From: a virus
Virus record (IMG/VR): IMGVR_UViG_3300028548_006009
Location: 1-25,959 of that record
DNA: 25,959 nt
Direction: 5' to 3' (one strand)
The translations under genes and the position numbers were made by a program. Shown piece by piece: positions 1 to 17,150 of the stretch; the stretch's first letter is position 1; each line of letters starts with the position of its first letter. The notes beneath the pieces were generated by a model, which saw only the letters and a list, made by a program, of their open reading frames with translations, was not told the origin of the DNA and did not search any database.

Positions 1-773
1 GCAAAAAACATAACACCTTTTCTGTCTTTTGATTGCTCTATAACATCAGCCACAATTAAGCTGGTTTTTCTTCCTTTACCTTTATAGGCTCTATCAACAT
101 CATCTTTATTAAACTTGCCCATCTTGTTGACAGTCATTTTAATAGTGTCATAGTGAACACTGTTAATTGCACCTATTAATGGTGGTGCTAAATATTTTTG
201 GTCAATTAAATCTGGCGCACCTATTGTATAAACCTTTTTAACAAAATAAGCATTTTCACCTATTGCTTTATCTTCTTCATTCATCTGGTAAATGTACCCT
301 GTTCCCATCCTATAAGGTGTCGCAGTTGTACCAATGACTCTTAATTTTGGATTGCCTTCTTTTATCTTTTCAATAATAGCTTTTACTGTTGGCGTAATTA
401 AATCACATTCATCAATAATAACCGCACAGAATTTGCCACTAAATTGGTCGATAGAATTTAAAACCGTTAATGGTGTGCCGAAAACTACTGGATATTTTAA
501 GCATCTACCACCAGCAGAAGCACTAAAGACACTGGCGTCTTCTCCAGTTTGCAGGTATTTGCTGCGGTTTTGTTTTACAAGCTCTGCGCTAGGCGCTAGG
601 CATAAAACGTTTTTTCCTTTGCTTAATTCGTGCAGTATCTTTGCAACTTCTGCAATAATCATGCTTTTGCCCGCGCCAGTTGCAGCCTCCAAAATACAAC
701 TATCAGTTGATGCTTTTACATGGTCAATAATTTTGTCAACCGCTGTTTGTTGGTAAGCTCTTAGCTTGTACAT
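1..773 (-). CDS. SF2 (DEAD/DEAH-type, RadD/RecQ-like) DNA helicase, C-terminus outside window
   Basis: The first 257 residues are visible; the gene runs off the left edge. The start is the ATG at 773-771, three bases after the stop of the exonuclease gene. Motif Q-like LRAYQQ is near residue 4, Walker A ATGAGKS at about 31-37, motif Ia around LAPSAEL at 59-65, and a Walker B/motif II of the DECD form at 121-124, followed by a motif III-like GTTATP. This order is that of superfamily II helicases such as RadD/YejH, which translocate on DNA using ATP. It is the last visible gene of a minus-strand recombination operon, so a role in unwinding or branch processing during replication or recombination is inferred. 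The conserved C-terminal helicase motifs cannot be checked here. Confidence 0.88.
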   Translation of the reverse strand, partial: MYKLRAYQQTAVDKIIDHVKASTDSCILEAATGAGKSMIIAEVAKILHELSKGKNVLCLAPSAELVKQNRSKYLQTGEDASVFSASAGGRCLKYPVVFGTPLTVLNSIDQFSGKFCAVIIDECDLITPTVKAIIEKIKEGNPKLRVIGTTATPYRMGTGYIYQMNEEDKAIGENAYFVKKVYTIGAPDLIDQKYLAPPLIGAINSVHYDTIKMTVNKMGKFNKDDVDRAYKGKGRKTSLIVADVIEQSKDRKGVMFF

Positions 774-776
774 TTG

Positions 777-1367
777 TTAATCTAAATGTTTTGAATTATC
801 AAGCTCAGATAAATACAGCTTATAAAATGTTTTTAGTTTGGGCAGGGTTTCTTTGATAAAATCGTGATTAAGTGGTATTTCTTCTAATAACTCTGCGCCA
901 GAAGGTGTCCATTGATAAAAGTATGCTTTAATCCTGCCACTGCATAACATTTCATATTGCACCTGCGCATAATAATGTTGCTGCTGGCTTAAAAGTTTAA
1001 AGTTTTGTACGCTTTTGTCATTTCTTAATCTGTATGGACATTTTATTTCCACGATCCATTCATCGTCCACCAGTCCATCAGGTGAAGCGCCTAACCAATC
1101 TTCAAATTCGTGAAAACCTGTATGTTTTATATCCTTGCCAATTCTGAGCTTTAAATCTGCGGTTGCCATTGCTTCATAAAAGTTGCCATGCTCAGTCGCC
1201 ACGTTACCTTGAAAATCAGCTTTTAGCCCATGATAATCTCTGACCATGTCTCTTAAAACATCTTGCGGTGACGACCAATGATTCATATTTAAGATAGCCC
1301 CTATTCTGCTGCCAGTTATGCGGCCTTTTCTTTGGCTAAACCATGCTTTTGTTCCTTGCTTGTTCAT
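777..1367 (-). CDS. YqaJ-type (lambda-exonuclease-like) viral recombinase nuclease
   Basis: This 196-residue protein has the YqaJ pattern: RKGRITGSRIGAIL near residues 13-26, an E-H-G..(Y/F)E segment at about 59-65, ASPDGLV at 94-100 and VEIKC at 106-110. Catalytic residues of the PD-(D/E)XK fold are D97, E107 and K109. The family resects dsDNA ends 5'-3' to make ssDNA for single-strand annealing. A longer reading from an ATG at 1394 is possible, but the ATG at 1367 has a GGAG site eight bases upstream and lies beyond a terminator hairpin, so it is preferred. It follows the DUF669 and RecA-like ATPase genes, the usual partners in phage recombination modules. Confidence 0.92.
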   Translation of the reverse strand: MNKQGTKAWFSQRKGRITGSRIGAILNMNHWSSPQDVLRDMVRDYHGLKADFQGNVATEHGNFYEAMATADLKLRIGKDIKHTGFHEFEDWLGASPDGLVDDEWIVEIKCPYRLRNDKSVQNFKLLSQQQHYYAQVQYEMLCSGRIKAYFYQWTPSGAELLEEIPLNHDFIKETLPKLKTFYKLYLSELDNSKHLD

Positions 1368-1381
1368 AGTGTTCTCCGTAC

Positions 1382-1409
1382 AAAAAAGCCCCACCGGATG
1401 GCAGGGCTA
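1382..1409 (-). terminator. Rho-independent terminator/attenuator inside the recombination operon
   Basis: Read on the minus strand, a nine-pair stem (AGCCCTGCC with GGTGGGGCT, two G-T wobbles) closes on the loop ATCC and is followed by six T. It sits between the stop of the DUF669 gene (1424) and the start of the exonuclease gene (1367). It should cut transcription partly before the nuclease and helicase, giving more ssDNA-binding protein than nuclease. Confidence 0.8.
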
Positions 1410-1423
1410 TTTATTAAAGTGTA

Positions 1424-1921
1424 TTAAAAGTCGATGTCTTCATCTTGTTTTTTAGTCAACTTTACATCTTTTTTGCCTGATACCGCGCAGACCCAATTTC
1501 CTGAGCGTGTTTGCCCATCGTCGCCAGCCATCTCCCAAACTTGCAATTTAAGTATCATTTGCTTACCAGTTAATGACTTGGTAAGCATTGCATCATCTGG
1601 TTGCTCACCTGATTTTAGCATTTTACCACCGGCGTTATAGTCTATAGTCGCCAGCATCTTTTTGGCTTTATCAGCGGTCTTTTCATTGTCGTGCATAACC
1701 TTGATATTTTGAAATATTTTTCGGTTCGCGTACTCCTCAGGGACTAAAACTTGCCATTCAATTGCAATATAGTCTCCGTTGTACTGATTGTTAGCCCATG
1801 CTGCGTTCTCAACAACACAAAGAACATCAGTGTTATCAGGTATAGGCTGGAAATTGTTGCTTGCATCAAATGTGCTTTTAGATTCGATGGCCTCAGATGT
1901 ACTTGTTTCCCAGAAATTCAT
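1424..1921 (-). CDS. DUF669-family protein, probable ssDNA-binding protein
   Basis: The 165-residue protein matches the phage DUF669 pattern: an N-terminal F..IPDNTD segment, then a beta-rich core with WQVLVPEEYANRKIF and a mid-domain lysine-rich helix. The C-terminus is acidic and ends DEDIDF, like the protein-interaction tips of SSBs. DUF669 members usually lie beside RecA-like ATPases and YqaJ or Erf/RecT recombinases and are thought to bind ssDNA; biochemical function here is inferred. The ATG overlaps the stop of the ATPase gene by one base (TAATG), so translation is probably coupled. Confidence 0.85.
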   Translation of the reverse strand: MNFWETSTSEAIESKSTFDASNNFQPIPDNTDVLCVVENAAWANNQYNGDYIAIEWQVLVPEEYANRKIFQNIKVMHDNEKTADKAKKMLATIDYNAGGKMLKSGEQPDDAMLTKSLTGKQMILKLQVWEMAGDDGQTRSGNWVCAVSGKKDVKLTKKQDEDIDF

Positions 1922-2697
1922 TATTTTGTTCCTTTTTTATTAATATTTAAAGATGGTATGTATTGTTTCAACGGGTTAATACCTGTGGTCACTTCGATAT
2001 CTTCCGTTATTCCGTACCTGTTTTTGCTTACATTTGCAGCGGTCGCATAGGTTACTAATAGCCTAGTACCGTCGCTGCGCGCTTTTTTTCTGTCGCCGTC
2101 GCCCGTTGTAAAAGTTTGCAGCTTCATAAATCCTACTAAATCGCAATCATCCACATACGGCGCAACACTTCTCTTGTTCAAGCGCAAAGTGTATCTAGTG
2201 TAGGCATCTTGGTCTGGCAGTTCGATTGTTTCTGTGTCTGCATGACCTATAAAAACAATATGCATATTTTTATTTTCATTAAGCCAACCGCAAAACTTGC
2301 GGGTTCTGTGGTGCATTGCAGAAATTGCAAGAAATCCTGCACCGTATCCGCCGAGTGCTTGCGCAATAGAGGCTGGTTTTTTCGGGTCTGACTCCATGAC
2401 CGTTGTTGTAAACAGCCTGTCTAGCGCTGTTACACTGTCTATAATTAAAGTTTGGTAGTCATGGTCTTGTTGTATTAACGCCGTTAATTGAGCCCATAAG
2501 TCTTCACTGCTTTTTAAAACTGGCAAAGCATCTGGTCGTGACTCTAAAGGGATTGATTGAAGTCCGTCTTCTGCACGAATTACAATCGGTTTAGGAAAAG
2601 ATGCGGCTAGGCTTGTCTTGCCCAGACCCGCATCACCTAAAATAGTCGCCAGAACTGGCCTATCCTTAGGTTTTTCTATCTCATTTAATATACTCAT
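1921..2697 (-). CDS. RecA-like AAA ATPase (Sak4/AAA_24-type)
   Basis: This 258-residue single-domain P-loop NTPase has Walker A GDAGLGKTS at residues 21-29 and Walker B LIIDS at 84-88. Its size and layout fit phage Sak4/PF13479 ATPases, short RecA/Rad51-like proteins that work with an SSB in single-strand annealing or replication. The start chosen is the ATG at 2697, preceded by AAGGAA; an upstream extension to 2793 would run through the promoter region and has no good ribosome site. It is the first gene of the minus-strand recombination operon, with the minus promoter at 2742-2770 immediately upstream. Confidence 0.88.
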   Translation of the reverse strand: MSILNEIEKPKDRPVLATILGDAGLGKTSLAASFPKPIVIRAEDGLQSIPLESRPDALPVLKSSEDLWAQLTALIQQDHDYQTLIIDSVTALDRLFTTTVMESDPKKPASIAQALGGYGAGFLAISAMHHRTRKFCGWLNENKNMHIVFIGHADTETIELPDQDAYTRYTLRLNKRSVAPYVDDCDLVGFMKLQTFTTGDGDRKKARSDGTRLLVTYATAANVSKNRYGITEDIEVTTGINPLKQYIPSLNINKKGTK

Positions 2698-2736
2698 ATA
2701 ATTTCCTTCTTCATGGCGCTTTATTGCTAACCATGC

Positions 2737-2765
2737 TTTACAGTGTACGTGCATTGCGTTAATAT
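2737..2765 (+). promoter_or_regulatory. Rightward sigma70-type promoter for regulator and primase
   Basis: A -35 box TTTACA (2737-2742), a 17-base spacer and a -10 box TAATAT (2760-2765) point at the XRE regulator gene starting at 2800. The -35 is followed by GTGTA, making the short motif TACAGTGTA, which recurs near 5619. The element overlaps an opposing promoter almost completely. Confidence 0.7.
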
Positions 2766-2770
2766 GTAAA
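2742..2770 (-). promoter_or_regulatory. Leftward sigma70-type promoter for recombination operon
   Basis: On the minus strand a -35 box TTTACA (complement of 2765-2770), a 17-base spacer and a -10 box TACACT (complement of 2742-2747) precede the RecA-like ATPase gene. Its -35 abuts the -10 of the rightward promoter and its -10 abuts the other -35, so RNA polymerase could not occupy both at once. Confidence 0.6.
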
Positions 2771-2799
2771 CAGTTATTTATAAACGGGAGCAATATAAC

Positions 2800-2973
2800 A
2801 TGATGACAAGATTGGAAATGGTTAAAGAATTAAAGACACGCAACCTTAGCCAAGTTGCTAGGGATATATCTGTAACAAGGGTTTATCTTTCGCATTTAGC
2901 TAACGGCAAGAGGCCGCAAGTATCTTGGGAAATGGTAAAGAGAATCAGTGATTATTTAGAGGTGGACAAGTAA
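2800..2973 (+). CDS. Small XRE/Cro-like helix-turn-helix regulator (57 residues)
   Basis: The protein is almost entirely a Cro/C1-type HTH: a first helix from about residue 4, the LSQVARDISV turn region near 16-25, the recognition helix VTRVYLSHLANG at about 25-36, and a closing helix WEMVKRISDYL. A GGGAG site lies nine bases before the ATG. Its stop overlaps the primase start by one base (TAATG), so the regulator and primase are co-translated. It lies directly downstream of overlapping opposed promoters, where a Cro-like protein is expected to bind. The target site is inferred, not shown. Confidence 0.85.
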   Translation: MMTRLEMVKELKTRNLSQVARDISVTRVYLSHLANGKRPQVSWEMVKRISDYLEVDK

Positions 2974-5231
2974 TGCACAGGGATTTAATGTCTGCTGGTT
3001 ATCGGATATTTGGACTACATCCCATTGTCGACGGCAAGTGCGGTTGCAGAAATAAAGACTGTAAAGCAGTAGGTAAGCATCCTTTTGCAGCATCTTGGCA
3101 GCATACGCCCTTATGGAGTAACGATCAGATTCTAAAAATGGAAGAAGCAGGTCAGTTTACAACTGGCTATGGTGTGTTAGTAGATGGCTTGTTGGTTATT
3201 GATGTTGATGCTAGAAATGGTGGGGTTGATTCTTTTCAAAGACTACTGGAAGACATTCCATCTATTAAAGATGCAGGGCTAGTAGTAAACACTGGTAGTG
3301 GTGGTGGTTCACAGCACCTATATTACAAGGTCAGTAATGATTTAGCCTTGCAGGGCAAGCATGATAATTACAAAGGAATAGATTTTAAATCATCAGGCTT
3401 TGTTGTCGGTATCGGTTCGCAACATAAATCAGGTGGCAGCTATGAAATAGACAGTGGATCTATTGACAGCATTGGCGCAGCACCGCAAGAACTAATAGAA
3501 CTGCTCAAGAAGCAAGATAGGCGCAGGGTGTTATTAAATGATAAGCCTGTTGATATATCTAGTTCAGAGGTTGCCGATATGTTGAGCTACATTAACCCAG
3601 ATGTAGAATATGACGTCTGGGTTCGCATTGGTATGGCTATACACCACGTTATGAATGGCGATGGTTTTGCAACTTGGGATAAATGGAGTAGCGATGGAGA
3701 AAAATACAGCGCATCGGAAATGGATAGCAAATGGTTTTCCTTTGGAAAAACTTCAAACCCAGTTGGAATGGGAACACTATTGTATTACGCGGAACTGGCA
3801 GGTTATGAAGCACCTGTAGATTTTAGCTCTACAGATGAGGTTAGCCCAGAAGTTTTTATTGGTGATTTACCTTGCGATATTAGCGATGTAGACCTACTGA
3901 GACCGCCGGGGTTTGTTGGCTCATTAACTGCATGGGTTAATAATCAGTGTAGATACCCACGGGAAAATTTAGCCGTTGGCGCAGCGATATCAGCAATGGG
4001 TAATGTCATTGGTTTAAAATACACAGATGGCTATAGCGGTGCATCTAGCAATATGTTTACTTTTTGCGTAGCAGCATCAAGCACAGGGAAAGAAGCTGTT
4101 TTACAAGCTACATCGGATATTCATAGATTTGCAGGTATAGCTGGTGCTTGTCATGGAACTATTAAATCCGAGCAAGAAATAACACGCAATTTAATTCAGC
4201 ATCAGGCAGCCATCTATGTGCTAGATGAAGTTGGTATCTTGTTGCAAAAGATAAACAACGCATCAGTTAGGGGCGGCGCAAGTTACTTGGAAGGTGTGAT
4301 CGGTTTGCTAATGTCGGCATATAGTAAAAGCGACAGTTTTATGCCTTTATCCGGTGACGTTAGAAGGGATGCAGAGTCCTTACTTCTCAAAGAATTATCT
4401 AGCTGCACCGTTAAAATAGAAGAAAATGCGGACAAGAATGGCAAGTACAGTAAACGCAAGGAACAAGTAGAACACGCGCTGGAAAATCTATCAAGCGGTT
4501 TAGAACGACCGTTTTTATCATTGATTGGATACACTACGCCGACTACATTTGAAGATTTAGTTACAAAGTCAAGTATCAGCAACGGGTTCATTGGTAGGTC
4601 TATATTAATAAACGAGAGGGAAACAAATCCTCGCGCAAAAAGACGGTTCAAAAAAACGCCAATGGCCGACACCATGAAGAACACTTTATCCAATTTATAC
4701 AACGCCGGCAACTACGACAGTACAGCATCCCGCATAGAGTTTATTGGCGATAAAATAGTTATCCCCTCTGAAGAGGATGCGATGGACTTACTGGACAGTT
4801 GCTTAGATTGGATTGAAGAGTACGCCGAGCAGCACAAAGAGATGTCAGGCCTAGAGGCTGCTATACGTCGCGGGTTTGAGCAGATAGTAAAGATATCATT
4901 TATCCTAGCAACAGCTTCTGGTGTTAGAACTGTTCAGCATGTCAGGTGGGCACTAGCATTTGCTCATCGTGATATTAATGAGAAAACCATGCTTGCTTAT
5001 GCAAACGAGCATAAAGACAGTAAAAAAGATGGCGCAAAGGTCTTAACCGCTAGGATTTTGGCAAATATAGACCGCAAAACAGGCGTTACGGTGGCAACAT
5101 TAGCGAATAGGCTAAGAAAGTCCAGTTCTGACATAGAAAAAACACTAGGACTAATGGGGGATCAAGTTGTTTCAGTTGAAACAATTCATTCCCGCAATAA
5201 AACAACGTCAATTAAATACTTTACAAGGTAA
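2973..5231 (+). CDS. Prim-Pol primase fused to DUF3987-like helicase domain (first of two primases)
   Basis: This 752-residue protein begins with a cysteine cluster (C23, C25, C30, then GKHP at 34-37) and an archaeo-eukaryotic primase-polymerase core: DVD at 77-79, the S-x-H motif at H115, and the GIDFKSSG segment near 135-142. A PriCT-2-like linker follows at about 200-278. The C-terminal half resembles the DUF3987 ATPase domain, with a P-loop-like ASSTGKE at about 368-374 and Walker B VLDE at 416-419. The P-loop is unusual because Glu follows the lysine where Ser/Thr is expected. The family synthesises primers and unwinds DNA at phage origins. It is the terminal gene of the XRE-primase unit and is followed by a strong terminator. 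Confidence 0.85.
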   Translation: MHRDLMSAGYRIFGLHPIVDGKCGCRNKDCKAVGKHPFAASWQHTPLWSNDQILKMEEAGQFTTGYGVLVDGLLVIDVDARNGGVDSFQRLLEDIPSIKDAGLVVNTGSGGGSQHLYYKVSNDLALQGKHDNYKGIDFKSSGFVVGIGSQHKSGGSYEIDSGSIDSIGAAPQELIELLKKQDRRRVLLNDKPVDISSSEVADMLSYINPDVEYDVWVRIGMAIHHVMNGDGFATWDKWSSDGEKYSASEMDSKWFSFGKTSNPVGMGTLLYYAELAGYEAPVDFSSTDEVSPEVFIGDLPCDISDVDLLRPPGFVGSLTAWVNNQCRYPRENLAVGAAISAMGNVIGLKYTDGYSGASSNMFTFCVAASSTGKEAVLQATSDIHRFAGIAGACHGTIKSEQEITRNLIQHQAAIYVLDEVGILLQKINNASVRGGASYLEGVIGLLMSAYSKSDSFMPLSGDVRRDAESLLLKELSSCTVKIEENADKNGKYSKRKEQVEHALENLSSGLERPFLSLIGYTTPTTFEDLVTKSSISNGFIGRSILINERETNPRAKRRFKKTPMADTMKNTLSNLYNAGNYDSTASRIEFIGDKIVIPSEEDAMDLLDSCLDWIEEYAEQHKEMSGLEAAIRRGFEQIVKISFILATASGVRTVQHVRWALAFAHRDINEKTMLAYANEHKDSKKDGAKVLTARILANIDRKTGVTVATLANRLRKSSSDIEKTLGLMGDQVVSVETIHSRNKTTSIKYFTR

Positions 5232-6078: not shown

Positions 6079-6546
6079 ATGAGAAACTTTGAAGAAGAAC
6101 TTTATCGTAAAATCAACGCTCTTGAAGTTAAGGTCGATGAATCGAATTTAAAATATACAGCCGTGGAAATTAATACTCACTGTGACCACATGGAAAAGCT
6201 ATCCACCGAGATGTTTGATACGACTCTAGATATTGTTGATCGCAAGGCATCGGCTAAACTTTGGAGAGCTTCTGGCGAAACAACTATAGGCGAAGATTTA
6301 GCTGGCTATAGAAATCAGTTGCTTCAAATTGAAATGCTGGAAGAATCATTGAAGCTCAACTTATTCGAGGTTACAACAAGATACTTGATCACTGACTCTA
6401 AAGATCTAATCAGTCCAGCGGGCTATCACTCTTCAGATCATGTATTTGTTCAGCCTACTAATATCGCTATTCAATCAGATAGCCTCAAAAATTTACCAAG
6501 CTGTAATGTCGACCTTCGAGCTTTCGATATGAACAATCTAGAATAG
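6079..6546 (+). CDS. Unknown phage protein (155 residues), N-terminal coiled coil likely
   Basis: The family is not recognised. The first about 110 residues are predicted mostly helical with heptad-like Leu/Ile spacing (EEELYRKINALEVKV and later LLQIEMLEESLKLNLFEV). The last 45 residues are Ser/Asp/Asn rich and less ordered. No signal peptide, membrane segment or catalytic motif is visible. AAAAAGG lies before the ATG. It is a single-gene unit between the promoter at 6005 and the hairpin at 6558. Confidence 0.75.
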   Translation: MRNFEEELYRKINALEVKVDESNLKYTAVEINTHCDHMEKLSTEMFDTTLDIVDRKASAKLWRASGETTIGEDLAGYRNQLLQIEMLEESLKLNLFEVTTRYLITDSKDLISPAGYHSSDHVFVQPTNIAIQSDSLKNLPSCNVDLRAFDMNNLE

Positions 6547-7915: not shown

Positions 7916-8130
7916 TCCTTGTTCTCCAAATCATTAACCATCTTTTCTAGGTAGTGAATTGCTTTTAGCAAATCTTCCTTCCTATTACTTTTATCTCTCA
8001 AGATATACTTGATTGCATTTCCACTATAAAAGCATAATTGATAGCTGTCAATAATATCCCAAGGTTGAATAGTGTTTTTTAAGTAGTGGTCACCACCTAC
8101 TTGTTGTTTCATTGGTGATTTGATATCCAT
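7912..8130 (-). CDS. DUF3310 family protein (SaV-like)
   Basis: The 72-residue protein has the full DUF3310 signature: QVGGDHY at residues 10-16, IQPWDII, a GNAIKYILR helix, and K-E-D-L-L-K-A-I-H-Y-L. DUF3310 is common in phages, sometimes labelled nucleotide kinase, with function not firmly known. Its ATG overlaps the phosphoesterase stop (TAATG), and GAGGAGAG lies just upstream. Confidence 0.93.
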   Translation of the reverse strand: MDIKSPMKQQVGGDHYLKNTIQPWDIIDSYQLCFYSGNAIKYILRDKSNRKEDLLKAIHYLEKMVNDLENKE

Positions 8131-9323
8131 TAATCTCTCCTCATGTCGGGTTCATTCTTAGGTTTCTCAATCTCATAAATCAACGTCGAATGTCTACCCC
8201 CTGACTTTCTAAAGGTAATCATTTCCATGACAGCACTTGACCCATATCCATGCTCAGCATGGTAGGAATCTGAAGGAGCTAATGTTCCAAACTTTTGAAC
8301 GATGCAACCATCCAATTCTAAAGTGTTCTGGTGATGCCAATGTCCCAAACACCACATTCTGTAAGTGCATCTACCCCAAGCCGTTGGCATATCTCTTGCC
8401 ATTACTGAAACAAGTTTTTGTGGCTTAATTTTATTGCCATGATTGATACCCAATAAGTTCTTTCCAAATTCTAAATAATGGAAAAACCCTTCTGTTGGAA
8501 GAACGCTCACTCTTGGCTCATTTTTATAATAAAATTCCAGTAACAGGCTCACTGCTTGTGCACTATCTAAATTATGATTCCCACGAGCCACGACCACTAT
8601 GACCTTGCTGAACTTCTCAAGCATACGGTCTATACTGTAAGACATAATTGATGCGCTTGTTCTTAGCGTCGTTCCGTACTTTGTGTCAACATCTAATTGT
8701 GTCCCTGAAAAAGTCTGTCCCTTAGAATTGTCAGCGTGCATAAAATCACCCACATCCACCAGCAATCCAATCTCTGAATTGGGTGCTCTTGAAACTAAAT
8801 TATCAACAGCCCCTCTCAACATTCCAGCCGATAGCTCTGTTGAATTTTCGCTTCCCCTCGTGTCACTACTAAAAGAACGAGCACCGACATGAGCATCACC
8901 AATAAAGATACTGCTCATCAATTCATCGTCGGTATCTTTGCTGTGTATAGGTTTAGGGTTGGCTGGGTCAAAGTTACAAAGACTTTCAGCGTACTCTTGC
9001 AGCAGCTGACTCTCTTGTTCTTTCTCCATGCTGGTCTTGACCCATTGGATCTTAATGTTTCCAGCCTCATCATAAAGAATTGACTTGCCTTTGATAAGAT
9101 AGCTATTGTCAACAGACTCAGTCGAACCGTCACCATGAGTGATTGTCTTTTGAGCAGCTCTGTCTCTTAATATTTTGAGAACCCTTCTTCCATAAGCACC
9201 ATCTATTGCTGAGTCCCTCCACGCTTTATTCTTTTTTCCTCCAGACTTTTTTAAAGCATCCAGCACATCACCTTGTCTTGCCGTAGTGCAGAACTCCCTG
9301 AGATACTCATAATCATCACTCAT
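8130..9323 (-). CDS. Calcineurin-like metallophosphoesterase
   Basis: This 397-residue protein has the metal-binding motifs in order: GDAHVG (D143, H145), VGDFMHADN (D193), ARGNHN (N249, H250), INHG (H295) and GHWHH (H328, H330). The first about 130 residues are an added N-terminal region with a helix-turn-helix-like start (IDGAYGRRVLKILRD). The family hydrolyses phosphomono- or diesters, including SbcD/Mre11 nucleases, but no SbcC partner is visible. Its position in a small regulatory operon leaves the substrate open: DNA, RNA or a nucleotide signal. AAGGATTAATA precedes the ATG. Confidence 0.9.
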   Translation of the reverse strand: MSDDYEYLREFCTTARQGDVLDALKKSGGKKNKAWRDSAIDGAYGRRVLKILRDRAAQKTITHGDGSTESVDNSYLIKGKSILYDEAGNIKIQWVKTSMEKEQESQLLQEYAESLCNFDPANPKPIHSKDTDDELMSSIFIGDAHVGARSFSSDTRGSENSTELSAGMLRGAVDNLVSRAPNSEIGLLVDVGDFMHADNSKGQTFSGTQLDVDTKYGTTLRTSASIMSYSIDRMLEKFSKVIVVVARGNHNLDSAQAVSLLLEFYYKNEPRVSVLPTEGFFHYLEFGKNLLGINHGNKIKPQKLVSVMARDMPTAWGRCTYRMWCLGHWHHQNTLELDGCIVQKFGTLAPSDSYHAEHGYGSSAVMEMITFRKSGGRHSTLIYEIEKPKNEPDMRRD

Positions 9324-9325
9324 TA

Positions 9326-9544
9326 TTAATCCTTTTTAAAAACATCACTTCTTACTTCATGTAAAGGCAAGCCTAACAAATCTGCGGCTTTCTCTGCAAG
9401 CGATGGATTGCCGACAACACCAAGCTGTCGAACTCCAATACAAACAGAATCAATAAGGGCTTTGGAACACCCCATGTCTTTAACAAACTTAGCACGTTTA
9501 TACTCTGCGATAGCAGCAATCAACTTATCATTTTTCATTTTCAT
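9326..9544 (-). CDS. Cro/YdaS-like small helix-turn-helix regulator
   Basis: The 72-residue protein begins with a charged helix, then KFVKDMGCSKALIDSVCIG, which can be read as an HTH, and ends with LGLPLHEVRSDVFKKD, similar to the tail of YdaS/Cro-type phage regulators. Family assignment is moderate. A second ATG at 9538 is in frame; the GAGAG upstream suits either. The gene heads the minus operon and starts just beside the GGTTACAAC repeats, so it may read or regulate that region. Confidence 0.55.
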   Translation of the reverse strand: MKMKNDKLIAAIAEYKRAKFVKDMGCSKALIDSVCIGVRQLGVVGNPSLAEKAADLLGLPLHEVRSDVFKKD

Positions 9545-9561
9545 TCTCTCTCTTTTTTAAA

Positions 9562-9773
9562 GGTTACAACAAAAGGTTACAACAACCTTATTTTTATCTG
9601 TCATCAAATCAAATTAAAATATTATTTTATTTTACCAACAAAATAAAATAACCACTATATTGTTGTAACTTGTAACCTTTTATATATAAGTAGTTAATAA
9701 ATATAATAAAAAGTAGGTTACAACAAAGGTTACAACAAAGGTTACAATAAGCCTAAATTAGCTTGTTGTAACC
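9562..9773. repeat. Iteron-like array of GGTTACAAC; candidate replication origin
   Basis: Plus-orientation copies of GGTTACAAC are at 9562-9570, 9575-9583, 9716-9724, 9728-9736 and 9740-9748 (last base T). The last three are exactly 12 bases apart. Inverted copies are at 9662-9670 and 9669-9677 (one mismatch each) and a perfect one at 9765-9773 inside the 3' end of the primase gene. Between the groups is an A+T-only hairpin and other AT-rich DNA. Repeats at fixed spacing beside a primase-helicase gene and easily melted DNA are the hallmark of an iteron origin; binding by the nearby primase or HTH protein is inference. Confidence 0.75.
9622..9651. repeat. Perfect 12-bp A+T inverted repeat within the iteron region
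   Basis: TTATTTTATTTT and AAAATAAAATAA flank ACCAAC. Neither strand has a T-run after the stem, so it is not a standard terminator. It is a good candidate for the unwinding element or cruciform of an origin. Confidence 0.7.
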
Positions 9774-12059
9774 AAATTCACTCCTTATTTCGTCATTAGT
9801 TAAAAAAGTTTTAGTCCAAACTCGACGAGCAGTACCATCAATCTTGACTACACCTTGTTGGCTGTAACCCATCTTTTTGAATAAATAATTAGCATCTCGA
9901 TTACTAAGTGGACCAACATCAAGCTCAATTGCTTCTCTAAATTCAGAGCTTGAAAAGACTTTAACGGTCCACCATTTACCTCCATCAACTAACATTTGTT
10001 CGGCCTCATGCTGACCATCAGTCATCGCTTTTTCTGTCTCAATTACTGAGCGCTTAGAGTTATTCATTGGAGCGACGCCGTCAAATCCAGCGGGAATATC
10101 TATACTTTCAAGCCAAGCTCTCATAGCCCCACCGTCTCGAATTGCTTCAAATAGTTTAGTAAAATAACCATGACCCATCTTATGAGCTGTTGCAAATGAC
10201 ACCCACCATCTTCTGTCGTGATGATTTTGAATAGGAACAGAGTCTCTAAAATTACTAAATACTAAATAGTTAGTCACATTGCGAACAACGTATGGCTTCA
10301 AGCCTTTATTGTTTATCTCAATGTCAGGGTCGGTAAACAATGGCTTAAGCGCATTGGCCACATCGAATCGGTTGTGACCTGTCAGCTTTAATTCCTGTAG
10401 AACGTTAACGGCTACACCTTCTGCCCAGCCGTTAAAGCTAGACTTAATAGTGTTGGGTGAAACTAGGCCAACATTCATGGCACCCATAGCTGACTTTAAT
10501 AGCTCTCCAAAGAAAGACTTACCGATGCCTTCATCACCTACAAGCAAGGGGGACCATCTAACAAGTTCACCGCATCGCTGAACTTGCCACGCTAACCATT
10601 GCAGGAAGACAACAGAATCTGCCTTACCAATAAGCCCTATTAAATGGTCAGTTATTATTTGTTCTGCTACAGGGTCTCTTTTACCAGCAGCTGGAACTAA
10701 GTCAGCACGGTAGGTATTTAAACAGTCACCTACTATCCTATCGGCTTCTGTAGGTATGTACTCAAGCCTATTTAATATAGAAATAAATCCGCCATCAGCA
10801 ACAGCTTGAGAGGCTGATTGTTTGGACCCGTTATCGCTGGCGGGTATTTGTATGCCACATTTAAGATTGAATGATGCAGCGCTGTAGCCCGTCATTGTGT
10901 TCAGATTTATGTACTGATTATGCGATAAGACGAACACCCAATGATTGCACCACTCAGGTCTAGCAGTAGCAGTCGTTAATGCGGAGGATGTAATCAACCG
11001 TCTAACATCAGCAATAGGGACTGGAACGCCGGTGAAACCTTTTAGCATGTTCTTCATGAGCGCGGCTAGTGTGTTCCTTTCTAGCGCATCAATGTTTGTT
11101 TCTTTTATCTCACCAGCCAATACCATCACGGCTTGTTCGCTGTCACATTCGTCAAGCCGATCTCTAAAAGACGGAGCTTTCCAACCCGCTTCTTTGGCTA
11201 GGTATATAATGGTACCGACAGATACACGAACGCCATCCTTTTCAAATGAACGCCAACGTTTTCTTGTCTCACCTTTCTTATAACTGACACCACCTTTACT
11301 CCATGCTTCCCAAATTTCTAACCCTTCATCTGCGTCCCAATCGTAAAGACACATACCTATTTTTGCCCAATAGTCGTTGTCGGAGTTGTTATCGAGAACG
11401 CTCAGGTAAGACTCAAGTTGAAGACGAGTAACCGCGTCGTATTGATTATCTATTAAACCGTCAAAATCTCCCAAGTCATCGTCGGTAACTACAGCCGCCG
11501 AGCTTCCGACCTCTACCCAAGTCGAAGGAACTTCTATTGCAGCCATCCATGCTTTAACTTTGTCAAAGTTTAGACTCTTTAACTCATGAGTCTCTAAGTC
11601 TTCCAATGACTCACCAGTCCAAATGTAATCCTTGCCAGTGTCTGGATGCTTACCAAATGCGGCGAACTGTTGGCCCTTGCCTAGCAATTCAAAACCATGC
11701 ACGACACCATCGGCATCACGCCACGAACGTTTTAGTTTAGTCTGACCTTCAACGCCTCTGTATACGAGTAGCTGCTTTGGAGCCTGACCGATGCGAACAG
11801 GAGCGCCGCCGAACTGTTCTATAAAAGATTTGACAACAACAGCCGAAACATCGGCGTCATAAAAGTCAAAGTCAGCGGCGTAAACAGAACCACAACGAAC
11901 GCCAATGTTCATAGCACCTTTACCGTTCAAGGACCACTTGCTTATTAAGTCTTCGGTTATCTCAATGTCTTGCCAATTAGAAACTACTGGTCGCTTACCA
12001 TCTATAGGTATGACCTCAAATCCGTTATTAAATAAAGTAGAAGCTAATTGTTTGTACAT
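9753..12059 (-). CDS. Second Prim-Pol primase fused to SF3-like helicase (DUF5906/VirE-type)
   Basis: This 768-residue protein has a Prim-Pol core with DFD at 63-65, a KQLLVYR strand near 95-101 and GKGQQFAAFGKHP near 127-139, then a PriCT-2-like domain at about 213-293. The helicase half contains QWLAWQVQR, Walker A GDEGIGKS (508-515) and later YLVFSN..D..P and DRRWW motifs, as in NrS-1-like phage primase-helicases. Such proteins prime and unwind DNA at a phage origin. It starts at the ATG at 12059 with AAAAGG upstream. Its 3' end contains one of the GGTTACAAC repeats and abuts the array, consistent with origin recognition. Confidence 0.88.
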   Translation of the reverse strand: MYKQLASTLFNNGFEVIPIDGKRPVVSNWQDIEITEDLISKWSLNGKGAMNIGVRCGSVYAADFDFYDADVSAVVVKSFIEQFGGAPVRIGQAPKQLLVYRGVEGQTKLKRSWRDADGVVHGFELLGKGQQFAAFGKHPDTGKDYIWTGESLEDLETHELKSLNFDKVKAWMAAIEVPSTWVEVGSSAAVVTDDDLGDFDGLIDNQYDAVTRLQLESYLSVLDNNSDNDYWAKIGMCLYDWDADEGLEIWEAWSKGGVSYKKGETRKRWRSFEKDGVRVSVGTIIYLAKEAGWKAPSFRDRLDECDSEQAVMVLAGEIKETNIDALERNTLAALMKNMLKGFTGVPVPIADVRRLITSSALTTATARPEWCNHWVFVLSHNQYINLNTMTGYSAASFNLKCGIQIPASDNGSKQSASQAVADGGFISILNRLEYIPTEADRIVGDCLNTYRADLVPAAGKRDPVAEQIITDHLIGLIGKADSVVFLQWLAWQVQRCGELVRWSPLLVGDEGIGKSFFGELLKSAMGAMNVGLVSPNTIKSSFNGWAEGVAVNVLQELKLTGHNRFDVANALKPLFTDPDIEINNKGLKPYVVRNVTNYLVFSNFRDSVPIQNHHDRRWWVSFATAHKMGHGYFTKLFEAIRDGGAMRAWLESIDIPAGFDGVAPMNNSKRSVIETEKAMTDGQHEAEQMLVDGGKWWTVKVFSSSEFREAIELDVGPLSNRDANYLFKKMGYSQQGVVKIDGTARRVWTKTFLTNDEIRSEFGYNKLI

Positions 12060-12084
12060 TGTTTTTTCCTTTTAGTTAAATTTT

Positions 12085-12114
12085 ATAATAACACACGTTG
12101 TGTTATTGTGTGAA
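12085..12114 (-). promoter_or_regulatory. Promoter for second primase
   Basis: On the minus strand a -35 TTCACA (complement of 12109-12114), 18-base spacer and -10 TATTAT (complement of 12085-12090), each five of six to consensus, precede the primase gene. The inverted repeat at 12087-12107 fills the spacer. Confidence 0.55.
12087..12107. promoter_or_regulatory. Perfect 9-bp inverted repeat, probable operator
   Basis: AATAACACA and TGTGTTATT flank CGT. The ACA-N3-TGT core is the same layout as the TACA-N3-TGTA motifs in the other promoters. It lies between two divergent genes and overlaps candidate promoters in both directions, so one bound protein could control both replication units. Confidence 0.7.
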
Positions 12115-12126
12115 ATACTTTATCAT
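12098..12126 (+). promoter_or_regulatory. Putative promoter for DUF2800-polymerase unit
   Basis: A -35 TTGTGT (12098-12103, three of six), 17-base spacer and -10 TATCAT (12121-12126, five of six) precede the gene at 12158. The -35 is part of the right arm of the operator dyad. The weak -35 makes this a tentative call. Confidence 0.4.
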
Positions 12127-12157
12127 TAAAACTCAAAACTAATAAAAGGTATTTAAA

Positions 12158-13252
12158 ATGAAGCACGCAAAGTTATCGGCCAGTGGTTCGGCCAAATGGT
12201 TGCGATGTCCGGGATCTTTAAAAGCAGAGGAAGGATATCCTAACACGTCATCTCCTTTTGCACTGGAGGGATCTTGTGCCCACGAAGTAGCAAGTGAATC
12301 GTTAATTACTAAATCACATCCTACCTTTTATATAGGCCAACTATTTCATAAAACAGTAGTCACTCATGAAATGGCTGACTTTGTTCTTGAATACACAGAG
12401 TATGTTGATGCGTTAATTACCGAAGATTCATCAGTTTTTATTGAAACAAAGGTAGACTTCTCAAATTACGTACCTCACGGATTTGGAACAGCCGATGCTA
12501 TTGTGGTCACCGATAGACATGCTCATGTTATAGATTTAAAGTATGGCAAAGGTGTGCCAGTCTATGCTGACAATAACAGCCAAGGCATGTTATATGCTAT
12601 TGGCGTTCTTAACGATTTGGGCCACATACATGACATAGAAGAAGTCACCGTGCATATTGTTCAGCCTAGAATAAGAAATTTTTCAGAGTGGACCATCAGT
12701 GTTAAAGATTTAATCACGTGGGCCACGAGAACATTAGCGCCAGCGGCAGCTCTTTGTTTAACAGATGATGCGCCGAGACATGCATCAACGGTAGCTTGTC
12801 GATGGTGCAAAGCTAAAGGAAATTGTGCAGAACTTTATGCGCTGACCAACAAAACCATAACAGGAATGTTTGATAGTTTGGACCAAGACATGAGCGACGA
12901 ACAAACTAAAATGATATTAGACAATCGTTTGCTAATTGAAGCATTTATGAAAGCTGTCGAGACTAACGCCAAAAATAAATTAAGCGACGGTCAATCAGTA
13001 GCAGGTTATAAGTTGGTGGCAGGAAGAAGTACAAGAAGATGGTCAGAAGATGCTTACAAAGACTTGGAGGTTAAGCTAGGATATCAAGCATACTCACGCA
13101 AATTGATTGGATTAGGCGAGGCCACAAAATTAATATCAAAAGAGTTTGTAGCCGAGCACACTGTAAAACCAGACGCCAAGCCAGTCTTAGTGCAAGAGTC
13201 AGATAAACGCGAGTCAATTAGTAATATAGGCTTTGAAAACTTAGACGCCTAG
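12158..13252 (+). CDS. DUF2800 PD-(D/E)XK nuclease, Cas4/RecB-like
   Basis: The 364-residue protein opens LSASGSAKWLRCPGS, the DUF2800 hallmark, with H41 in the CAHEVASE helix, D112 in GTAD, and IDLK (D125, K127) as the nuclease core. Four cysteines, C17, C213, C216 and C222, are placed as in AddB/Cas4 nucleases that hold an iron-sulfur cluster. The family is thought to process DNA ends in phage recombination. AAAGG lies before the ATG. It leads the plus-strand replisome unit, ahead of its usual partner DUF2815. Confidence 0.9.
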   Translation: MKHAKLSASGSAKWLRCPGSLKAEEGYPNTSSPFALEGSCAHEVASESLITKSHPTFYIGQLFHKTVVTHEMADFVLEYTEYVDALITEDSSVFIETKVDFSNYVPHGFGTADAIVVTDRHAHVIDLKYGKGVPVYADNNSQGMLYAIGVLNDLGHIHDIEEVTVHIVQPRIRNFSEWTISVKDLITWATRTLAPAAALCLTDDAPRHASTVACRWCKAKGNCAELYALTNKTITGMFDSLDQDMSDEQTKMILDNRLLIEAFMKAVETNAKNKLSDGQSVAGYKLVAGRSTRRWSEDAYKDLEVKLGYQAYSRKLIGLGEATKLISKEFVAEHTVKPDAKPVLVQESDKRESISNIGFENLDA

Positions 13253-13304
13253 TGTTACTATTTAAACGTGCACTTGATGCACATAACTAAAAGGATAAAA
13301 TACA

Positions 13305-13802
13305 ATGTCTAAAATTCACTTAAAAAATGTAAGGTTATCATTCGCTTCAATCTTTCACCGGGCTGTATTTAACGGCGACGAGGGTAAATATGAAGCAACG
13401 TTCTTAATACCAAAGACCGACGAAGCAACCAAGGAAGCTCTCGATGAAGCTATCGCAGATGCTCTCAAAGATGCGAAAGTTAAAGTGCCATCAGATAAGT
13501 CATGCTTAAAAGACGGTGACGATTCCGAGTACGATGGTTATGCAGACCATTGGTCATTTAAGGCAGCAAACAATAAACGTCCAACGATTATTGACCGAGA
13601 TAAAACACCATTAGTAGAAGAAGATGGCAAGCCTTATTCTGGCTGCTATGTAAACGCTGTTGTTGACATTTGGGTCCAAAACAACAGTTATGGTAAGCGA
13701 GTGAATGCCAACCTCCACGGCGTTCAGTTTGTCAAAGATGCTCAATCATTCGGCTCAGGTGGAACACCCGATGCAACAGATGAGTTCGATGACTTAGACT
13801 AA
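13305..13802 (+). CDS. DUF2815 single-stranded DNA-binding protein
   Basis: The 165-residue protein has the DUF2815 start (KNVRLSFASIF), an F-L-I-P-K strand, and the YSGCYVNAVVDIWVQNN core of an OB-fold. It ends in an acidic tail, DEFDDLD, expected to recruit partners. Related phage proteins bind ssDNA. AAGGATAAAATACA precedes the ATG. A GTGCA-CTTGA-TGCAC dyad lies in the short gap after the DUF2800 gene. It is followed by a strong terminator. Confidence 0.9.
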   Translation: MSKIHLKNVRLSFASIFHRAVFNGDEGKYEATFLIPKTDEATKEALDEAIADALKDAKVKVPSDKSCLKDGDDSEYDGYADHWSFKAANNKRPTIIDRDKTPLVEEDGKPYSGCYVNAVVDIWVQNNSYGKRVNANLHGVQFVKDAQSFGSGGTPDATDEFDDLD

Positions 13803-13819
13803 TAACCATAAACAAGATT

Positions 13820-13846
13820 GGGGCGGCTTCGGCTGCCCCTTTTTTT
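13820..13846 (+). terminator. Strong rho-independent terminator between SSB and polymerase
   Basis: An eight-pair stem GGGGCGGC with GCTGCCCC (one wobble) and a TTCG loop is followed by seven T. Because no clear promoter was seen between it and the polymerase start at 13866, polymerase expression probably depends on partial read-through, keeping it below SSB. Confidence 0.88.
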
Positions 13847-13865
13847 ATTATAAGGAGCAAAGCTA

Positions 13866-15602
13866 ATGCCTCTTGCCTTAGACACAGAATGTTACCCAAA
13901 CTTCCATTTAATTTGCATCGCAGATAAAGAATGGCATACATCAAACAAGTACACCAAGCAGCAGCGCACAGAAATACGTGACACAATGCGAAGTGCTACG
14001 ACGTATGGCTTTAACTCTTTAAATTATGACATGCCAATCATTCATGCTGCATTAAAAGGCAGCAGTGTGAAAGCGCTTTATAAAATGTCTAAAGATATCA
14101 TTGATAATCAGCAGCCGCATTGGATCACCTATCGTGAGCATAATATCGAACAGTTCAGCGGTTTCGATCACTTTGACATTAAAGAACCTGCACCCGCCGT
14201 TATGATTTCTTTGAAAATGTATGGCGCAAGAATGCACATGCCAAACCTTCAAGACTTGCCCTACGACCCTCATTTAGAATTAAGCGATGTTCAAAAAGAA
14301 GAAATAATTAAATATTGTTTCAATGATATCGCAACAACTAAAGCCTTGTACTCAGCCATCAAGGGTCGCTCTAAACTTCGTAATCAATTAACAGATAAAT
14401 ACGGCCAAGATTTGAGGTCCAAGTCTGATGCTCAGATAGCAGAAGCTATTATAAAAAGTGAAGTTGGTAATGTTAAAAAAACAAAAGCGCCAGAGTTTGT
14501 TAAATATACATTCCCTAAATTTATACGCAGAACTAAACTTACCGCCGAAGTATATGACTTCATAAGCGAGAGAAAGTTTGAGCTAAAGAAAGGCAAGATA
14601 ACATTGCCAGATGACATGCCAACAGTGACTATAGGAACGATGGTCTATAAGTTTGGTGTTGGAGGAATACACTCGACAGAAAGTAATCAAGAAGTTAAGC
14701 CAACAAAAAATCAAATATTAGCTGACCGAGATGTCGGGTCCTACTACCCTGCAATAATTTTAGAACTTGGCTTGTACCCAGAGGGTGTTGGCAAGAAGTT
14801 TTTAAAGACATATAAAAGTATTTTTGACCAGCGACTAGAAGCAAAAGAGAAAGCAAAAACTGGCGACAAACAAGCAGCGTTAATACGTGATGGTTATAAA
14901 ATTGCGTTAAACGGCAGTTACGGTAAGTTTGGTAGCGAGTATAGTTTCTTGTACTCTCCACAACTTTTATTGCAGACAACAATCACTGGCCAGTTGGCTT
15001 TGCTGCAATTAATAGAAGCCCTTCATAAAGAAAACATTATCACTGTCTCAGCAAACACGGACGGTATCGTAAGTTTATTCGATAAAGATTTATATGAAAG
15101 TTACGATGGTATCTGCAAAAAGTGGGAAAAATTTACAGGGTTTACTTTAGAAGAAACTCAGTACAGAAGTTTACATTCAGCAAATGTTAATAATTATGTG
15201 GCCATAACACCCAATGGCGAAGTCAAAGGAAAAGGCGATTATGCACAACCTTCTTTGATGAAATCACCACGGTGTTCGATACTAGCTGAATCAGTAAAAG
15301 CATTTCTTTTGAACGGAACAAAGATAAGCGAGACCATTAAAAACTGCACGGACCTCACAAAGTTTATAGCAGTTAGACAAGTAAAAGGTGGAGCAGTATG
15401 GAAAGGGCAAGCGCTGGGCAAAGTGGTGAGATGGTATTATTCAACCAATGGTGAAGCCATAAATTATTTATCGAACGGAAACAAAGTTGCTACGAGCGAT
15501 GGAGCAACTCCGATAATGACATTGCCGAAAACATTACCGTCAGACATTGACTATGACTTGTATATTGCAAAGGCCAACAAAATGTTGGGTGAATTATGTT
15601 AG
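13866..15602 (+). CDS. Family B DNA polymerase with 3'-5' exonuclease
   Basis: The 578-residue replicative polymerase has Exo I LDTE (D6, E8), Exo II FNSLNYD (N50, D55) and Exo III YCFND (Y150, D154). Polymerase motif A is DVGSYYP (D289), motif B KIALNGSYG (K345, N349, Y352), and motif C NTDG (D399) in place of the more usual D-T-D. It is short for a B-type enzyme, like compact phage polymerases. AAGGAG lies ten bases before the ATG. The stop overlaps the VRR-NUC gene. Confidence 0.92.
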   Translation: MPLALDTECYPNFHLICIADKEWHTSNKYTKQQRTEIRDTMRSATTYGFNSLNYDMPIIHAALKGSSVKALYKMSKDIIDNQQPHWITYREHNIEQFSGFDHFDIKEPAPAVMISLKMYGARMHMPNLQDLPYDPHLELSDVQKEEIIKYCFNDIATTKALYSAIKGRSKLRNQLTDKYGQDLRSKSDAQIAEAIIKSEVGNVKKTKAPEFVKYTFPKFIRRTKLTAEVYDFISERKFELKKGKITLPDDMPTVTIGTMVYKFGVGGIHSTESNQEVKPTKNQILADRDVGSYYPAIILELGLYPEGVGKKFLKTYKSIFDQRLEAKEKAKTGDKQAALIRDGYKIALNGSYGKFGSEYSFLYSPQLLLQTTITGQLALLQLIEALHKENIITVSANTDGIVSLFDKDLYESYDGICKKWEKFTGFTLEETQYRSLHSANVNNYVAITPNGEVKGKGDYAQPSLMKSPRCSILAESVKAFLLNGTKISETIKNCTDLTKFIAVRQVKGGAVWKGQALGKVVRWYYSTNGEAINYLSNGNKVATSDGATPIMTLPKTLPSDIDYDLYIAKANKMLGELC

Positions 15603-15874
15603 AAAGTGCAATTGAGAAGTCGTCAATGGCAGCGGCTAAAAAAGCAGGGTGGTGGGCCATAAAATTGGTCCCATCGTTTATAGCTGGATTACCTGACAGA
15701 ATGTTCATCGGTCACGGCAAGGTTGTTTTCATTGAATATAAAACAGAGAAAGGTAAGCTCACAAAACTCCAAGTTGCTGTGCATAAAAGATTTGAAAAGC
15801 ATGGGATAGCTGTTTATGTGTGTCGAAGTAAAGAGGAAACCATGTTGGTTTTAAATAAATATGAAACTTCATAA
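15596..15874 (+). CDS. VRR-NUC domain nuclease
   Basis: The 92-residue protein is a minimal VRR-NUC: GLPDR with catalytic Asp, a VVFIEYKTEKG strand (E and K), then an alpha helix QVAVHKRFEKHG and YVCRS. The family includes Holliday-junction and flap nucleases. It overlaps the polymerase end by 7 bases and the helicase start by 14 bases, so the three are made together. A pairing of VRR-NUC with SNF2-type helicase after a polymerase is usual in phage replication cassettes. Confidence 0.93.
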   Translation: MLESAIEKSSMAAAKKAGWWAIKLVPSFIAGLPDRMFIGHGKVVFIEYKTEKGKLTKLQVAVHKRFEKHGIAVYVCRSKEETMLVLNKYETS

Positions 15875-17150
15875 ATATCAACTAAAAGCTGTTGAGTTTA
15901 TTAAAAAGAAAAAGCGAGTAGCGCTACTTCTTTCGATGGGCTTGGGTAAAACAGTTTCAACATTAACGGCTATATCTGATTTAAATGTTCGAGTTTTAAT
16001 TGTAGCTCCATTGCGAGTTGCCAACACTGTTTGGAAACAAGAAGCAGAAAAGTGGGAACATTTAAATCATTTAGATATCGGCATTGCAACAGGAACTGCT
16101 GCACAGAGACGAGAAGCATTTAGTCATGACATTGTAGTTATCAATCGAGAAAACATCGCATGGATGATGGCCAATATAGCTCCTAAATTTGACATGCTAG
16201 TTGTTGACGAAAGTAGCTCGTTTAAATCAGCAAAGTCTGCTCGTTTTAAAGCGCTGAAAAAATTAGAAGTTGAGTACTGTGTGCTATTAACTGGCACTGT
16301 CTCGCCATCAGGTTTAATGGACCTTTGGTCTCAATATTTTCTTTTGGACCGAGGTCACAGATTAGGCAGAACCATTACTGCATTTAGAAATAGATTTTTT
16401 AGGCAGGGTGGCTTCGGCGGTTATCAGTATGAGATACGAAAAGGTAGCGCCGACATTATTCACAATCTTGTAAAAGATATCTCTTTATCAATGGCAGCTG
16501 AAGATTATTTAGATATGCCCGACAAAATAAATTTAACGCAAGCAATAGAGCTGCCAGAAGATGTTCAGGAAAAATACACGACCATTCAAAATGAATTTGT
16601 TTTAGCCATCAATGACGATGAGATATCTATCTTATCAGCAGCGAGTTTAAGCAATAAACTACTGCAAATGGGCAACGGATTTATTTACACCGAAGAAGGT
16701 GAACCTATTTATCTACACGATGCAAAAATAGATGCTCTGTCAGAAATAATAAACGACAACACTGGCGATAATATATTAGTCTTTTATAATTTCAAAGCTG
16801 ACCTTGAGCGTTTACAATCTAAGTTTAAGCAAGGTGTTGTTTTAGATAAAAAGAATAAAGCAATAGACGAATGGAATAAGGGCAATATACCATTGTTATT
16901 TGCGCAACCAGCAAGCGCTTCAATGGGCATTAATCTGCAAAAAGGAGGTAACATTATTGTGTGGTATGGCCTCACTTGGAATTTAGAACATTATCAGCAA
17001 GGAAACGCCAGACTACATCGCCAAGGGCAAGATAGCTCAGTTACTGTGATGCATCTTGTTGTTAAAGGCGGCATTGATGAAAAAATAATGCTGGCACTAA
17101 CTGGCAAAGCTAAAACACAACAAGACCTGCTCGACTTTTTAAGGGCTTGA
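15861..17150 (+). CDS. SNF2-family DNA helicase/translocase
   Basis: The 429-residue protein has Walker A SMGLGKT at 25-31, motif II DESS at 116-119, motif III LLTGTVSPSG, and in the C-lobe ASASMGINLQKG and QGNARLHRQGQ (motifs V and VI). This is the phage SNF2 type. It is paired with VRR-NUC and the polymerase; a role in fork or branch remodelling is inferred. Its stop codon lies within the -35 box of the next promoter. Confidence 0.93.
   Translation: MKLHKYQLKAVEFIKKKKRVALLLSMGLGKTVSTLTAISDLNVRVLIVAPLRVANTVWKQEAEKWEHLNHLDIGIATGTAAQRREAFSHDIVVINRENIAWMMANIAPKFDMLVVDESSSFKSAKSARFKALKKLEVEYCVLLTGTVSPSGLMDLWSQYFLLDRGHRLGRTITAFRNRFFRQGGFGGYQYEIRKGSADIIHNLVKDISLSMAAEDYLDMPDKINLTQAIELPEDVQEKYTTIQNEFVLAINDDEISILSAASLSNKLLQMGNGFIYTEEGEPIYLHDAKIDALSEIINDNTGDNILVFYNFKADLERLQSKFKQGVVLDKKNKAIDEWNKGNIPLLFAQPASASMGINLQKGGNIIVWYGLTWNLEHYQQGNARLHRQGQDSSVTVMHLVVKGGIDEKIMLALTGKAKTQQDLLDFLRA

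Follow-up and report, generated by a model that had tools for sequence, protein, structure and literature searches.

The 212-bp segment at positions 9562-9773 of the window, by which we mean the whole 25,959-nucleotide stretch of viral DNA analysed here (IMGVR_UViG_3300028548_006009), is most probably a phage replication origin, a reading to which we give a probability of about 0.82. The adjoining primase-helicase (9753-12059, minus strand) would bind the GGTTACAA iterons of this segment through its C-terminal winged-helix domain, SF3 hexamers would assemble on iteron blocks of opposite orientation, the AT-rich spacers of 38 and 80 bp that separate the blocks would be melted, and the Prim-Pol domain would prime DNA synthesis. 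We infer binding, melting, priming and the origin function of the array, and the best reading of the compared sequences is that of a P4/SaPI-like rep-ori in its working, paired here with a Prim-Pol/PriCT_2/SF3 initiator. In the open-licence literature, searched at the level of titles and abstracts, we found no iteron origin described for this group of Prim-Pol primases, for BcepNazgul or for the Casjensviridae.

The iteron array in the window

Eight GGTTACAA-type sites lie within 9562-9773; the earlier note on this DNA, made from the letters alone, had reported eight copies in both orientations, which is correct for the number and the strands, but five are exact copies of GGTTACAAC and three carry one mismatch. 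Read along the primase strand, the order is one forward site, three reverse sites, 38 bp, two forward sites, 80 bp and two reverse sites. The first site (9765-9773, minus strand) is exact, runs in the sense of the primase gene and lies inside its 3' end, as had been noticed. Reverse block I consists of three plus-strand sites with an exact 12-bp period (9740-9748, GGTTACAAT, one mismatch; 9728-9736 and 9716-9724, both exact GGTTACAAC); these had been taken for the last copies of the array, which is true of the plus strand only, since the minus-strand site at 9765 follows them. The 38-bp spacer behind this block (9678-9715, 8% GC) is the proposed unwinding element and is followed by forward block II, two overlapping minus-strand sites with one mismatch each (9669-9677, GGTTACAAG; 9662-9670, AGTTACAAC). 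A spacer of about 80 bp (9584-9661, 17-19% GC) then leads to reverse block III, two exact plus-strand copies of GGTTACAAC (9575-9583 and 9562-9570). The AT-rich DNA described between the groups of repeats is thus found in both spacers, against 39% GC in the whole window. The segment therefore has what defines an iteron-type rep-ori: several short iterons near an initiator gene and an AT-rich region between blocks.

The array is far above chance. Six exact copies of one 9-mer lie within 212 bp in the window; local shuffles (n = 2000) reached a maximum of four copies of a 9-mer, and in whole-window Markov shuffles (n = 100) no 9-mer exceeded three copies per 212 bp. No second cluster was found in the 26-kb window, and the same array accompanies the same primase on a second contig, IMGVR_UViG_3300028548_004680 (L002). 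Outside the segment there is a weaker site with one mismatch, at 9861, and a lone exact GGTTACAAC is found about 3.2 kb from the array, at 6369-6377, within the small ORF 6079-6546. Of the perfect hairpins, the most compact is a 12-bp inverted repeat with a 6-nt loop (9622-9633/9640-9651) in the spacer of about 80 bp. Elsewhere on the contig, a tandem 6-bp repeat (TCAAGC-type, 23605-23635) codes for an Ala-Gln run in a 636-aa protein.

Replication/recombination genes come in two sets on the contig, one at 1-5231 (helicase, YqaJ exonuclease, SSB, Sak4-like protein and DUF3987 primase) and one at 8130-17150 (SF3 primase, DUF2800 exonuclease, Enc34-type SSB, polymerase and SNF2 helicase), and two full primase-helicases in one phage are unusual. 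Behind the gene of the other primase (2973-5231) there is no iteron array. GC skew, put forward in the earlier note as a check, is uninformative on the position of the origin because it follows the gene strand: in the window the skew tracks the strand of the genes, and in phage AH2, a relative discussed below, its minimum lies at a divergent promoter about 3 kb away from the array.

Arrays behind homologous primases

Homologues of the primase were gathered by protein similarity alone, together with a few phage records, and 48 non-redundant loci with an SF3 domain and enough downstream DNA were kept; taking out the window and two loci found through the motif (L018 and L095) left 45. An array was called where at least four copies of one 8-mer lay in the region from 100 bp before to 500 bp after the gene end. 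Such an array lies behind the primase gene in 25 of these 45 motif-blind homologues, including phage AH2, with a GGTCCGAA array, and L220, as against 2/43 upstream regions, 0/45 regions inside the gene and 2/27 regions at 1.5-2.1 kb downstream; the shuffled expectation is 0.2%, and the difference between downstream (25/45) and upstream (2/43) has a Fisher p of 1e-7. In the other 20 homologues there was no array at the threshold of at least four copies of one 8-mer. One supported clade (L246, L247, L251, L258 and L268) has no array found behind the primase gene, and its origins may be of another type.

The array words vary among homologues (GGTTACAA, GGTAACA, GGTGACAA, GGTCCGAA, GGGCGCAA and others); they belong to one family whose members resemble each other at the edges, as in AGGTTACAA, AGGTAACAA, GGTGACAAG, AGGTCCGAAT, AGGGCGCAAT and TGGGCGCGA. 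The geometry recurs as well: 14 of the 25 motif-blind arrays have a reverse block, a short AT-rich spacer, a forward block, a long AT-rich spacer and a reverse block, the short spacer measuring 37-63 bp (mostly 37-47) and the long one 72-100 bp, ranges that were picked after looking at the data, so that the binomial p-values calculated for them are descriptive. The spacers of the window, at 38 and 80 bp, fall within these ranges. Some homologues (L197, L205 and L211) have extra iteron blocks. Equivalent arrays of the same geometry directly behind homologous primase genes support the idea, raised in the earlier note, that the repeats form an iteron origin.

The iteron word also follows the protein. 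Between word distances and primase distances, the Mantel correlation was highest with the SF3 part (0.68), followed by the C-terminal part (0.57; values for these two parts range over 0.55-0.68), PriCT_2 (0.45) and Prim-Pol (0.15), with 0/2000 permutations reaching the observed value for the SF3, C-terminal and PriCT_2 parts. Partial correlations were 0.21 for the C-terminus and 0.46 for the helicase core, two parts that are not separable by this measure. As far as these sequence comparisons reach, the iteron word tracks the relatedness of the primases, which ties the array to the primase without singling out the C-terminal domain.

The primase-helicase and its predicted winged helix

The proposed initiator is a protein of 768 aa (9753-12059, minus strand) with Pfam matches to Prim-Pol (PF09250), PriCT_2 (PF08707) and the DUF5906 SF3 helicase (PF19263); Foldseek and HMM searches match it to pRN1 ORF904 and, in its helicase half, to the C-terminal region of NrS-1 polymerase. 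Its residues 655-768 (9753-10097, minus strand), the proposed iteron-binding module, are predicted to form a winged helix: the AlphaFold2 model has the order E47-49, H50-61, H66-75, E79-86 and E89-95, with a pLDDT of about 90 in the core. Compared with the PDB, the C-terminal model hits mostly winged-helix domains (PadR-family regulators, RFX5, MCM4 and a subunit of the origin recognition complex), with Z below 8, and a Foldseek search with this model alone gave no match below E 0.001. The model thus indicates the winged-helix fold class but no particular relative. The protein would accordingly join an SF3 helicase (DUF5906) to a putative C-terminal DNA-binding domain, as befits an initiator of this type.

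The best named-phage relatives of the primase belong to the Casjensviridae and similar phages, e.g. FoX4, JS26 and AH2, with 27-30% identity to Casjensviridae primases over 97% of the length, spanning Prim-Pol, PriCT_2 and SF3; the match to phrog_1156 has an E value of 1.9e-61, with its best stretch at residues 4-308. In phages of the FoX4/JS26/AH2 type, the primase gene follows a gene for Cro or for a small hypothetical protein and points away from the genes for the DUF2800 exonuclease, the ssDNA-binding protein and the polymerase, and in the window the primase is likewise divergent from the DUF2800, SSB and polymerase genes. The divergent promoter region between primase and DUF2800 genes holds a perfect 9+9-bp palindrome that is unique in the window (12087-12107, AATAACACA-CGT-TGTGTTATT), likely a repressor operator.

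GGTTACAA arrays in other viruses

A scan of IMG/VR for three copies of GGTTACAA at short spacing gave at least 120 matches. Such raw counts were dropped as evidence, because the control word TGATGACA gave equally many listed matches (again a lower bound), mostly coding repeats, and only both-strand, non-coding arrays discriminate: these make up 52 of the 120 listed GGTTACAA matches, versus 3/120 and 2/50 for two control words. Among the matches listed, the GGTTACAA arrays alone recover three homologues of the window primase (L018, L095 and L119), in two of which (L018 and L095) the array lies directly behind the primase gene. Known Pfam domains were found in 18 of 20 large ORFs picked beside listed both-strand non-coding arrays, and most of these 18 are primase-helicases (DUF5906 SF3, D5, VapE, DnaG, AAA_25 and DUF927). 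Of 39 ORFs close to an array in a wider set, again among the matches listed, 11 have DUF5906, which does not figure in the list of families for 39 far ORFs. Where a listed array has a primase-helicase neighbour, it lies mostly at the 3' end of that gene. That arrays found through the motif alone adjoin primase-helicases speaks for the Prim-Pol/SF3 protein as initiator, one of the two candidates of the earlier note. A search with L037 returned near-identical copies only.

Two further kinds of GGTTACAA occurrence were seen. Six records (L056, L062, L063, L108, L111 and L113) have about 30-90 dispersed copies over several kilobases, many of them as GGTTACAAAAA, which seems to be something other than the compact arrays. 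In two others (L022, 4173-4344; L114, 10450-10717), the 3' end of a Prim-Pol/AAA_25 gene contains a GGTTACAA-type array in frame, and the iterons there also encode Val-Thr-rich protein repeats. A tentative idea, which we hold to be rather improbable, is that GGTTACAA serves as an origin "address" common to unrelated phages with different initiators (SF3 Prim-Pol, D5, VapE, RecA-like AAA_25, DnaG/TOPRIM and DUF927). The simplest guess for one word across such different families would be a winged helix that is shared or exchanged.

Alternative explanations

The repeats could instead be operators of a transcription regulator acting over the HTH-exonuclease operon (start at 9544), for example of the possible Cro/HTH-like protein of 72 aa encoded next to them (9326-9544, minus strand; no Pfam match). 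The array does lie upstream of this gene in the window, with a possible Cro-like protein encoded adjacent, and GTTACAAC is a near palindrome. We nevertheless consider this unlikely: none of the other loci with an array encodes a relative of the HTH protein, so the regulator is not conserved with the array; in 17 exonuclease relatives that lack this primase in their neighbourhood there is no GGTTACAA array; and a look for promoter-like sites on the relevant strand gave none. In AH2, moreover, the equivalent array has the primase gene on one side and a gene of the opposite strand on the other, a convergent arrangement confirmed by the contiguous relative L218, and it is not a promoter operator in these two because convergent genes flank it. 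For the absence of the HTH protein from other array loci and of arrays from the exonuclease relatives, we rejected this protein as the binder in the main explanation; the earlier note had named it as the other possible initiator, and it is probably a neighbour of the array and not its partner.

An origin elsewhere, with the array bound by the same primase as a replication enhancer, incompatibility or copy-control locus in the manner of P4 crr, is about as improbable, perhaps slightly more so. P4 has two iteron loci, the contig is a fragment of 26 kb beyond which other origins may lie and, as mentioned, three homologues have further iteron blocks; against it stand the single cluster in the window and the AT-rich spacers between oppositely oriented iterons, which suit a melting site. 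Least probable, and very much so in our view, is that the Prim-Pol domain recognises the repeats, or primes at them, as single strands, and that they are not duplex binding sites of a winged helix. NrS-1 polymerase requires a specific 8-nt template sequence (PMC7102993) and CCPol-MP primes at origin iterons (PMC7581432), but the correlation of the iteron word is poor for Prim-Pol (r 0.15), the helicase and C-terminal parts giving better values. The recognition sequence of NrS-1 was also considered as the source of GGTTACAA and rejected, the published sequence being different (PMC7102993).

Implications and comparison with known systems

Origins of uncultured phages are rarely known. Should the rep-ori reading be true, the origins of a large Prim-Pol phage group, among them Casjensviridae of culturable hosts, could be read from sequence by a rule that looks behind the primase gene for reverse-forward-reverse iterons with AT-rich spacers of about 38 bp and 72-100 bp, and the pairs of iteron word and primase, both of which vary, would form a natural data set on DNA recognition by initiators. 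Should GGTTACAA be an address as well, winged-helix specificity modules or ori cassettes would be swapped between initiators, creating cross-recognition groups among co-infecting viruses; with an array common to different helicase families, the question would be whether co-infecting elements engage in cross-talk.

Among the known systems closest to the module are those of staphylococcal elements. SaPI Rep and SCCmec Cch2 bind, through their C-terminal domain, iterons that immediately follow the helicase gene (PMC7581432), and the window shares with them an initiator helicase whose gene is followed at once by short iterons, the binding being conjectural in the window. The iteron words differ, the present arrays belong to phages, and SaPI and Cch2 rely on a separate primase protein, whereas Prim-Pol, PriCT_2 and SF3 are fused in the window. 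P4 alpha, like the window protein with its predicted domain, unites a primase, an SF3 helicase and a C-terminal origin-binding domain in one polypeptide and works with iterons (in part from PMC4234260), but its primase is of the TOPRIM type and that of the window an archaeo-eukaryotic Prim-Pol (PF09250) with PriCT_2, so that membership of the P4 alpha family was rejected. pRN1 ORF904 resembles the window protein in its Prim-Pol, SF3 helicase and winged helix, with a putative origin just downstream (PMC4234260); there, the essential origin region downstream of ORF904 is described as an iteron-free stem-loop, and the authors suggested that phage relatives have stem-loops too (PMC4234260). An origin of this type, a stem-loop of about 100 bp without iterons, does not describe the window, which has an iteron array and a hairpin of only 12 bp. 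NrS-1 polymerase shares the Prim-Pol and SF3 architecture and is the closest solved structure for the helicase half, but its 8-nt recognition sequence occurs twice in the genome and forms no array (PMC7102993). In Casjensviridae such as AH2, finally, the homologous primase is divergent from the DUF2800, SSB and polymerase genes as in the window, and in AH2 an array lies behind it; the iteron word is another one, and a Cro gene stands upstream of the primase where the window has a small gene downstream.
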